Assembly: GCF_019747315.1 (NCBI RefSeq)
Contig: NZ_JAIEQY010000258.1
Span: forward strand, 1 to 50,331
Length of the DNA: 50,331 nucleotides
Direction of reading: 5' to 3'
From: Roseococcus sp.
GTDB taxonomy: Bacteria > Pseudomonadota > Alphaproteobacteria > Acetobacterales > Acetobacteraceae
How positions within the stretch are numbered: position 1 is the first letter of the stretch; every line of letters starts with the position of its first letter. This document shows, piece by piece, positions 46,699-49,627 of this stretch. Under the pieces are notes generated by a model. It was not told the DNA's origin, did not search any database, and was given only the letters and a program-made list of their open reading frames with translations. Both the position numbers and the translations under genes were made by a program.

Positions 46699-47880
46699 AT
46701 GCTCCACGGCCGCAAAATCCTTCTGATCGTCTCCGGCAGCGTGGCCGCCTTCAAGGCGCTCATGCTGGTCCGCCTGCTGCGCGCCGAGGGCGCCACGGTC
46801 CGCGCCGTGCTGACGGCGGGTGGTGCGCGCTTCGTCACCAAGGAAGCGCTCGCCGCCATCACCGGCGAGGCGGTGCAGGACGACCTCTGGGCGGCGGAGG
46901 CCGAGATCGGCCATATCCGCCTGGCGCGCTGGGCCGATGCGGTGGTGGTCGCCCCCGCCTCGGCCAACCGCCTCGCGCAGATGGCCCAGGGCCTGGCGGA
47001 GGACCTGGCCGGCTGCATCCTGCTGGCGACGCGCGCGCCGGTCCTCGCCGCGCCCGCGATGAACCCGGCCATGTGGGCGCATCCGGCGACGCAGGCCAAT
47101 ATCGCGACCCTCGCTTCGCGCGGCCTGCACTTCATCGGCCCCGAGGATGGCCCCATGGCCGAGCCGGAATCCGGCCCCGGCCGCCTTTCCGAGCCCGCGG
47201 CAATGCTCTTCGCCATCCGCACCCTGCTGGCCTCAGGCCCGCTTTCCGGCCGGCATGCGCTGGTGACCAGCGGGCCGACGCATGAGCCGATTGATCCCGT
47301 CCGCTACATCGCCAATCGCAGCAGCGGCAGGCAGGGCCATGCCATCGCGGCGGCGCTGGTGGCGCTCGGCGCGCGCGTGACGCTGGTGAGCGGCCCGGTC
47401 ACCCTGCCGGACCCGCCGGGGGTGCGGGTGCTGCGGGTGGAGACCGCCCGCGAAATGCTGGCCGCCTGCGAGGCCGCACTGCCGGCGGATATCGCCATCT
47501 TCGCCGCCGCCGTGGCCGATTGGCGGGTGGCGCGGGAGGCCGGGCAGAAGCTCAAGAAGCAGCCGGGCGCCGAGGCCCCCACGCTCGGCATGGCGCTGAA
47601 CCCGGATATCCTGGCCACCCTCTCGCGCCACCCGCAGCGCCCGCAGCTGGTGGTCGGCTTCGCGGCCGAGACGGAGCATGTGGTGGAACACGCGCGCGAC
47701 AAGCTTATCCGCAAGGGTTGCGACTGGATCGTGGCGAATGATGTCTCGGGCGATGTCATGGGCGGCGCCGAGAATGCCGTCCACCTGGTCACGGCCGAGG
47801 GCGTGGAGGAATGGCCCAGAATGCGCAAGGAAGATGTGGCGGCGCGCCTCGCCACCCGGATCGTGGAGTTCATCGCATGA
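46699..47880 (+). CDS. coaBC: Bifunctional phosphopantothenoylcysteine decarboxylase/synthetase CoaBC
   Basis: The 393-residue protein joins CoaC (residues 1-180; [15 protein letters not shown] flavin-binding start, catalytic His72 in [19 protein letters not shown]) to CoaB (from about 185; [32 protein letters not shown], and the KLKK lysines). It makes 4'-phosphopantetheine from phosphopantothenate and cysteine in two steps. The flap that normally carries an Ala-Cys-Gly reads [11 protein letters not shown], without Cys. GTG 46663, overlapping the EamA stop, is another possible start. Confidence 0.94.
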
Positions 47881-48812
47881 AGATTCTGGTGCAGCGCCTG
47901 CCGCATGCGGAAGGGCTGAAGCTGCCCGCCTATGCCACCGAAGGCTCGGCCGGGATGGATCTGGTGGCGGCGCGCGCCGTCACCCTCGCGCCGGGGGCGC
48001 GGGCCTTGGTGCCCACGGGGCTGTGCGTGGCCCTGCCGGATGGCTTCGAGATGCAGGTCCGCCCGCGCTCCGGCCTGGCCCTCAAGCACGGCGTCACCGT
48101 GCTGAACGCCCCGGGCACGGTGGACAGCGATTATCGCGGCGAGGTCGGCGTGATCCTGGTGAATACCGGGACCGAGAGTTTTCCCATCGCGCGCGGCGAG
48201 CGCATCGCCCAGGCGGTCTTCGCCCCCGTCACTCGCGCCGAATGGGAATCCGTGGTGGTGCTGCCGGAGACGGCGCGTGGCACGGGCGGCTTCGGCTCCA
48301 CCGACGCCGCGCCCGTACCGCCTGCGCCGGCCGCGACGGCCGAGGATGGCATGGAGCGCATGATGGAGGCGGTCCGCGCGCTGGGCGCCGCCTATCGGCA
48401 GCGCACGGGCCGGCCGCTCGGCGTCTCGGGCGAGCTCGGGGAATACCTGGCGGCGCGGCATCTGGGCCTGACCCTGCTGGAGGAGCGCCAGCCCGGGGTG
48501 GATGCCACGCGCACCAGCGCCAGCGGCCAGTCGGAGCTGGTGCTGATCCGCACCCGCGCGGTGCCCATGGCGGCGCTGGAAGGTCGCCGCATCGGCGCCG
48601 TGCCGGAGAGCGAGACGGCGACGCATCTCATCCTCGTGCTGCTGGATGAGGAAAGCCTGCGCCTGGAGGCGATCTGGCAGGCCCCCTATGAGACGGTGTA
48701 TGGCCAGCAATTGACGCGCGGCAATTCGCGCGGCGTGCATCTGACGCGCTTCCTGGCGCTGCCGGGGGCGGAACGCCTTTGGTCGCGACCCGGCTCGAAC
48801 CCGGCGGGTTGA
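47877..48812 (+). CDS. dut: dUTPase fused to a C-terminal nuclease-like (DUF6998-type) domain
   Basis: Residues 1-143 are a complete trimeric dUTPase: [47 protein letters not shown] and the C-terminal flap [10 protein letters not shown]. This hydrolyses dUTP to dUMP. A Pro/Ala linker (144-158) is followed by about 150 further residues: [55 protein letters not shown] and [20 protein letters not shown]. This second part resembles the restriction-endonuclease-like DUF6998, though the usual Lys in the QIK position is Arg225. Normal dUTPases are about 150 residues. Start overlaps coaBC (ATGA). Confidence 0.9.
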
Positions 48813-48829
48813 GACCCCATATCCCCCGC

Positions 48830-49627
48830 ATGGACCTCGATTTCACCGAAGCCGAACTGCACCGCTATTCCCGCCACATCCTGCTGAAGGAGGTGGGCGC
48901 CATCGGCCAGGCGCGGCTGCGCGCGGCGCGAGTGCTGGTGGTGGGCGCGGGCGGGCTTGGCTCGCCGCTGGCCATGTACCTGGCCGCGGCGGGGGTTGGC
49001 ACGCTGGGCCTGGTGGATCATGACCATCTGGAGCTCTCCAACCTGCAGCGGCAGATCGCCCATAGCACCGCGCGCATCGGCCAGGCCAAGACCGACAGCG
49101 CCGCCGAGGCGCTGCGCGCGCTGAACCCCGAGGTGCAGCTTGAGCTCCACCCGCGCCGGATGGACCGCGCGGCGGCCGAGGAACTCATCCCGCGCTATGA
49201 CGTGATCTGCGACGGCACCGACAATTTCCCGACGCGCTTCCTGCTGGGCGATGCCTGCCATTTGCTGGGCAAGCCCCTGGTCAGCGCCGCCGTGCTGCGC
49301 TTCGAGGGCCAGCTTTCCGTCTTCCGCGCGCATCAGGGCGCACCCAACCCCTGTCATCGCTGCCTGCACCCGGAGATGCCGCCCGAGGGCCTGGTTCCCA
49401 CCTGCTCGGAGGCGGGGGTGCTGGGCGCCGTGGTCGGCGTGATGGGCACGCTCCAGGCCACGGAAGTGTTGAAGGTGATCCTCGGGATTGGCGAGGACAT
49501 GTCCGGCCGGCTGCTGCTCTGGGATGCGCTGGATGCGCGCTTCCGCACGGTGAAGCTGCGGCGCGACCCCGCCTGTGCCCTGTGCGGCGAGGCCGCGACG
49601 ATTCATGACCTGGCGGCGCACGCATGA
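48830..49627 (+). CDS. MoeB/ThiF-type adenylyltransferase
   Basis: The 265-residue E1-like enzyme has the N-terminal RYSRHILLKEVG, the ATP-binding loop GAGGLGSP (39-46), VDHDHLELSNLQRQ, CDGTDNF, a Zn-binding CHRC (Cys175, Cys178) with a second pair near the C-terminus (CALC), and the likely thiol Cys192 in PTCSEAGVLGAVVG. It adenylates the C-terminal glycine of a ubiquitin-like sulfur carrier (MoaD or ThiS); which one is unclear. There is no rhodanese domain. The next gene overlaps (ATGA), so it is coupled to a DsrE-family protein. Confidence 0.92.
   Translation: MDLDFTEAELHRYSRHILLKEVGAIGQARLRAARVLVVGAGGLGSPLAMYLAAAGVGTLGLVDHDHLELSNLQRQIAHSTARIGQAKTDSAAEALRALNPEVQLELHPRRMDRAAAEELIPRYDVICDGTDNFPTRFLLGDACHLLGKPLVSAAVLRFEGQLSVFRAHQGAPNPCHRCLHPEMPPEGLVPTCSEAGVLGAVVGVMGTLQATEVLKVILGIGEDMSGRLLLWDALDARFRTVKLRRDPACALCGEAATIHDLAAHA

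Follow-up and report, generated by a model that had tools for sequence, protein, structure and literature searches.

The gene studied here lies on contig NZ_JAIEQY010000258.1 of Roseococcus sp. (Acetobacteraceae; assembly GCF_019747315.1), of which positions 1 to 50,331, the whole stretch analysed, are called the window below. It encodes, in a single uninterrupted frame of 311 codons from ATG to TGA (47877-48812, + strand), a dUTPase, the housekeeping enzyme that guards DNA against uracil, joined to a C-terminal domain (C-domain, residues ~155-304) which, on its sequence and modelled fold, is derived from the 5-methylcytosine (5mC)-dependent type IIM restriction endonucleases of the BisI/Esp638I group. 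The C-domain entered this locus once, is under constraint in two sister species and has very probably lost the ability to cleave DNA, as judged from its homologues. This combination of a known enzyme with a known nuclease family is new in that it was absent from the literature searched: neither a description of such a fusion nor a case of reuse of a dead restriction domain was found, as judged by titles and abstract openings.

Layout and identity of the fused domain

The N-terminal part of the protein matched the Pfam dUTPase family PF00692 at residues 15-142 (E 7e-31) and the NCBIfam dUTP diphosphatase equivalog NF001862 with 197.5 bits, above the cut-off of 103. All five dUTPase motifs were located, at residues 25-31, 62-68, 80-92, 106-115 and 134-142. 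The fusion is the only dUTPase match in its own genome (an assembly of 407 contigs, 97% complete, with 6.5% contamination). The DUF6998 profile PF22522 matched residues 161-281 with 31.4 bits for the whole protein and 34 bits for the domain alone, both above the gathering cut-off of 27. A preliminary description, made from the letters of the window, had proposed a full dUTPase with all five motifs, a DUF6998 second domain of restriction-endonuclease-like fold, a real fusion without a frameshift and a place directly after coaBC. All of these were borne out, the nuclease-like fold by the profile and model matches that follow (Table 1).

Comparison of the C-domain with PADLOC gave a match to mREase_II (PDLC03209) at 5e-13, and comparison with the characterised Pam7902I showed 35% identity over 103 amino acids (E 5e-17 for that pairwise comparison). 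A profile of the family, when compared with solved structures, matched Eco15I (2.4e-6) and NhoI (9e-4); the match of the single C-domain sequence to Eco15I was weak (E only 0.023). The AlphaFold model of the C-domain (predicted local distance difference test score, pLDDT, 89) had Eco15I and NhoI as its best PDB matches and contained a PD-(D/E)xK fold with the N-terminal dimer helix alpha0, the equivalence of this helix being taken from a structural alignment over model residues 1-153. According to the report on Eco15I and NhoI, alpha0 holds these BisI-family enzymes together as dimers (PMC11347163).

The family PF22522, which is of 'unknown function' in Pfam, takes in BisI/Esp638I-type methyl-dependent enzymes (loci L048-L073 and L085-L100 of our collection). 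A literature search on DUF6998 found no papers.

Table 1. Coordinates of the fusion gene, its parts, its neighbours and the residues aligned with characterised active sites
Feature	Position in the window	Strand	Basis or remark
coaBC, upstream of the fusion	46699..47880	+	stop overlaps the fusion ATG by 4 nt (ATGA, 47877-47880); start set at the Met of MLHGRKILL, as present in L031 and L107
dut::DUF6998 fusion gene, 311 aa	47877..48812	+	open reading frame, Pfam, NCBIfam
dUTPase domain (residues 1-142) with its five motifs intact	47877..48302	+	Pfam, NCBIfam, motif positions
Pro/Ala-rich linker, residues 143-158, fast-evolving	48303..48350	+	9/16 residues common to the sister species
Predicted alpha0 (residues 155-177), counterpart of the helix through which BisI-family enzymes dimerise	48339..48407	+	AlphaFold model
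DUF6998 / BisI-Esp638I-type PD-(D/E)xK domain, residues 159-304	48351..48788	+	profiles, model, Pam7902I comparison
TGRPLGVSG, residues 177-185, alpha0-alpha1 linker, most conserved stretch of the family	48405..48431	+	alignment
E189, kept (Pam7902I E39 / Eco15I E49)	48441..48443	+	alignment
D209, kept (Pam7902I D59 / Eco15I D69)	48501..48503	+	alignment
L223, in place of the metal-binding Gln (Pam7902I Q72 / Eco15I Q79)	48543..48545	+	alignment
R225, in place of the catalytic Lys (Pam7902I K74 / Eco15I K81)	48549..48551	+	alignment
T249, in place of Pam7902I D98 (essential there)	48621..48623	+	alignment
D257, kept (Pam7902I D106)	48645..48647	+	alignment
Next gene downstream, which we take to be moeB/thiF-like	48830..49627	+	neighbourhood comparison

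A single entry between dut and moeB, kept in two species

A dUTPase match was present in 20 of the 21 genomes of the genus, and only two of these 20, our own (G000) and that of a sister species (G163), matched over all 311 residues. The survey of the family found a dUTPase match in 141 of 150 genomes and, among the matches listed, only our own was full-length (G163 was not drawn). The fusion of the sister species is 85% identical over 311 amino acids and lies in the same order, coaBC - fusion - moeB. A pattern-based scan of genome contigs with the C-domain gave one locus, in a pond metagenome-assembled genome of the Acetobacteraceae (L031), which was taken to be the G163 record. The fusion resembles other trimeric dUTPases in its five motifs and in having coaBC upstream on the same strand, as in 14/14 of the loci examined in the genus, out of 20 that have a dUTPase. 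It differs from them by 169 additional C-terminal residues: among 130 fetched dUTPase loci, 169 residues follow the dUTPase in the five loci of the two fusion genomes and at most 33 in the rest.

The occurrence of the same two-domain gene at the same place in a second species ruled out an assembly error or a frameshift as the source of the fusion. The preliminary description had called for a search for this layout in other genomes, which found it in one sister species, and had named a recent gene fusion error as the alternative. This alternative fails: although 18 of the 20 dUTPase-bearing genomes of the genus are without the domain, the sister species keeps it under purifying selection.

Several apparent longer matches proved not to be fusions. 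Those in G124, G044, G164 and G071 were alignments that continued, beyond a stop codon, into moeB or into unrelated sequence, that in G028 had a stop inside and aligned with dUTPase residues 1-120 only, and the weak matches in G166 and G156 (E in the range of 3e-4 to 7e-4, together with G153) came from an unrelated protein stretch without the motifs of the domain, presumably succinate-dehydrogenase-like.

A tree of the coaBC and dUTPase proteins, built for a choice of 16 genomes among those fetched (14 from the genus, 2 from outside it), placed the two fusion genomes as sisters with a local support of 0.995. Of the 14 genus loci, 10 include moeB downstream: in four it lies 12-29 nt past codon 142 (counting the stop), in the two fusion loci behind the C-domain, in three behind an unrelated small gene, and in G161 beyond 198 nt in which no gene was recognised. 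This variability of the interval, together with the presence of the domain in two sisters only, showed that the spot between dut and moeB accepts insertions and that the C-domain entered it once and has a single origin. No remnant or ancestor of the domain was recognised between dut and moeB in G156, G165, G166 and G161 (intervals of L041, L043, L044 and L046), where the best match was one of 31 bases of DNA in G166 (E 0.013), taken as chance. The small gene of G156, G165 and G166 is unrelated to the domain and looks lipoprotein-like by eye.

Comparison of the two species gave a ratio of nonsynonymous to synonymous substitution rates (dN/dS) of 0.18 for the domain (residues 159-300), 0.22 for residues 143-311, 0.26 for the dUTPase and 0.12 for coaBC, with dS values of 0.35-0.44. 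The ratio of the domain is no higher than that of the dUTPase, which speaks against both assembly error and decay. The identity observed over residues 143-311 was 83%, and a neutral simulation (2000 runs), in which these residues were mutated randomly to 0.40 changes per site, a value that we chose, gave a mean of 45% and a maximum of 55%. Since 17% of these neutral runs were free of stops, the absence of stops is weak evidence when taken alone, and it is the retained identity that bears the argument. The dN/dS values and the simulation ruled out recent decay, and the C-domain is settled and constrained between the two species. The G+C content of its codon positions resembles that of its neighbours. 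In the domain tree (32 sequences, L133 having been removed by a motif filter), a stem of about 3.2 changes per column separates the fusions from the 30 others (the midpoint root divides it into 2.65 and 0.58), and the distance between the fusions is 0.15; this long stem with short tips suggests a burst of change followed by rest.

Catalytic site and free-standing relatives

The catalytic columns were read in an alignment of 70 sequences, made of the two fusions and 68 hand-picked relatives among those fetched (near-duplicates included; same-gene repeats and the two frames L059 and L061 left out). They read E-D-Q-K in 55 sequences, E-D-E-K in 7, E-D-S-K in 5, E-D-L-R in 2, which are the two fusions, and E-D-gap-gap in 1 truncated frame. 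The QxK motif is therefore absent from both fusions (LIR, 2/2), and the catalytic Lys is present in 67/67 of the other relatives with a readable site. The column of Pam7902I D98 held 17 D and 1 E in 18 free-standing rows and Thr in the fusions, which thus lack the required acid. ExK and SxK variants of QxK occur among the members of PF22522.

The two mutagenesis reports state that substitution of Ala at E49, D69, Q79 or K81 of Eco15I abolished activity in each case (PMC11347163), and that E39A, D59A, K74A, D98A and D106A abolished the activity of Pam7902I while Q72A left it partial (PMC8281217). The cleavage of DNA containing 5mC or 5-hydroxymethylcytosine (5hmC) has very probably been lost by the fusion, as its homologues indicate, because the positions K74 and D98, essential in Pam7902I, are changed in it in addition to Q72. 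The preliminary description had already pointed to an Arg at the place of the catalytic Lys (R225), to which the change of Gln to Leu is now added.

No match to PF00145, the cytosine-5 methyltransferase family, was found in either fusion genome (both assemblies are incomplete), so that methylation by the host itself neither explains the loss of cutting nor provides an obvious self target; inactivation as a consequence of the host methylating its own cytosines is thus not supported. Seven PF00145 match pieces were found in G158, a close relative (contigs C3, C7 and C23), and none in G000, G163, G154 or G161.

The free-standing relatives examined include genes of prophages, integrase islands and plasmids, a statement that covers part of their contexts. 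The relative in G092 lies within a prophage (terminase, portal, prohead protease and capsid genes), those in G970 and G888 lie near phage-type integrases, with a TrwC relaxase as well in G888, and 22 loci of relatives were found in viral contigs. The phage collection gave no match to the fusion domain or to the G092 relative. The relatives in G722 and G960 showed no obvious mobile element by eye, and that in G401 (L077:7697-8167) lies in the row dnaX - gene - ybaB - recR, which is not visibly mobile. This last gene, from another family of the same class, carries an intact QIK and has an unusual chromosomal home for such an enzyme.

Possible function and precedents

We favour, at about even confidence and on the evidence of alignments and models, the explanation that a mobile restriction enzyme was captured, lost its cleavage and became an appendage of the dUTPase that dimerises and perhaps binds DNA. 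A type IIM gene of the Esp638I/Pam7902I group would have entered the space between dut and moeB before the two sister species of Acetobacteraceae parted, and would have fused, in the same reading frame, with the tail of the only dUTPase of the cell; homology, position and single origin are observed here, and we infer the direction and the steps of the capture. The nuclease would then have lost its Gln-x-Lys site and the third required acid and, according to alignment and model, would have kept its fold, the Glu of the first helix, the Asp of the metal site, the dimerisation helix and the minor-groove linker. The alpha0 helix of the model and the nearly invariant TGRPLGVSG of the alignment are both kept in the fusion. 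The dUTPases of the PF00692 type are trimers, so that pairing of the C-domains would cross-link trimers into a larger assembly, which may be held near DNA and may lower dUTP locally. The loss of the cutting residues while selection was maintained suggests that the domain probably has a new, non-cutting job, which we take to be that of a dimerising appendage that may also be tethered to DNA.

Several observations weigh against this explanation. The structural match is at the level of the family only, with Foldseek TM-scores of 0.4-0.6 and root-mean-square deviations of 4.1-4.7 on re-alignment with BisI-family chains. The loss of the Gln alone is not decisive, because Pam7902I Q72A is partly active and 5/67 of the other relatives carry Ser at this position. 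The basic loop PGSKARNERG, otherwise conserved, is at least four residues shorter in the fusion, and the fused domain lacks lysine altogether in both species (0/159, window 48333-48809), when each of five free-standing relatives that were checked has 7-10; DNA binding by the C-domain may thus have been lost too. The purifying selection could partly reflect the need to fold rather than a function, and a relaxation of constraint is another possible source of the long stem. The isoelectric point of the C-domain (6.4) is uninformative because that of the active Pam7902I is 5.6. The interpretation given in the preliminary description, of a nuclease-like domain that may only bind DNA, stood as to the fold and the likely loss of catalysis and is now refined to an origin among 5mC-dependent type IIM enzymes. 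The role in handling uracil-containing or foreign DNA that it suggested is a conjecture, and the evidence on DNA binding points both ways, with the dimer helix and the TGRPLGVSG linker kept but the basic loop shortened and lysine absent.

Retention of the domain as a mere passenger, either as a stabiliser of the dUTPase or because misfolding would be harmful, is rather unlikely. The dUTPase is the sole one found in the genome and most of the genus does without the domain, as this explanation would have it, but a stop after residue 142 would be a cheap way of removing the domain, none has occurred, and the domain is as constrained as the enzyme; the identity kept, more than the absence of stops, carries this argument. 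A nuclease still cutting modified DNA with a rearranged site, in which Arg replaces Lys and another residue replaces Gln, is highly improbable: the catalytic Glu and Asp are kept, conservation between the two species is strong and Pam7902I tolerates Q72A in part, but K74A and D98A are dead in that enzyme, both positions are altered in the fusion, and Lys is found in every other relative with a readable site. We also consider it quite unlikely that the gene has two products, the second being a free C-domain of a nested pair, started at the ATG of codon 159. This ATG is in frame, 5 nt behind a GAGG (window 48342-48353), and near the start of the free-standing relatives, and the sister species shares both elements next to a linker that evolves fast; however, GAG and ATG also simply encode Glu and Met in a segment that is conserved, and only two sequences are compared.

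Little probability is given to dominant-negative immunity, in which the dead domain would pair with incoming Esp638I-type nucleases of phages or plasmids and poison the heterodimers, the dUTPase providing steady expression. The helix that holds BisI-family dimers is kept, and in the family and phylum of the host there are relatives that look live, carried by prophages, islands and plasmids. Against this, no Esp638I-type partner was found in its own genome beyond the fusion (one scan scored 9 of 44 first-look candidates); among the matches listed for 14 genus genomes only G152 matched besides our own, with a different type of DUF6998; and pairing is doubtful at the low identity of 27-37% between the fusion and the aligned free-standing forms. 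It is very unlikely that the dead domain acts as a modification reader which, by binding densely 5mC/5hmC-modified (phage) DNA, or DNA generally, would place or gate the only dUTPase and so change uracil entry and exposure to glycosylase. Uracil-DNA glycosylase had two matches in each of five genomes, and a lack of this enzyme was thereby ruled out.

The favoured appendage belongs to the same sequence family as the Esp638I/Pam7902I group, is predicted to share its fold from end to end, and retains the catalytic Glu and Asp, the TG[KR]PLG linker and the Asp at D106. It differs by its junction to a dUTPase, by the changes of Gln to Leu, Lys to Arg and D98 to Thr, by the shortened basic loop, and by a chromosomal place beside housekeeping genes, many relatives among those examined being carried by mobile elements. 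The retroviral nucleocapsid domain is a zinc knuckle, and we know of no homology between it and the C-domain. The closest precedent is the nucleocapsid-dUTPase of the beta-retroviruses (MMTV p30 and that of M-PMV), a dUTPase covalently linked to a nucleic-acid binder; that of M-PMV is described as keeping both activities (PMC4531489). It differs from the fusion in having an unrelated N-terminal domain and in being made by frameshifting. The DmtZ-DutZ protein of Z-DNA phages (NDT-Dut-like) also joins a dUTPase-family domain to another domain through a flexible linker, but its partner is an NDT/DNPH1-like nucleotide enzyme, N-terminal, phage-encoded and not of a nuclease fold (PMC12884076).

The finding connects DUF6998, to which Pfam assigns no function, with restriction enzymes characterised as 5mC-dependent. 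If the capture took place as proposed, the fusion would clearly show how a housekeeping enzyme took in a mobile restriction enzyme of the methyl-dependent kind, which was disarmed, at a time bracketed by relatives without the domain. Should the C-domain prove to be a modification reader, a restriction enzyme would have been rebuilt as a non-cutting device of defence or repair based on the nucleotide pool. The fusion offers a test object for the exaptation of restriction folds and for the placing or gating of a dUTPase on DNA.
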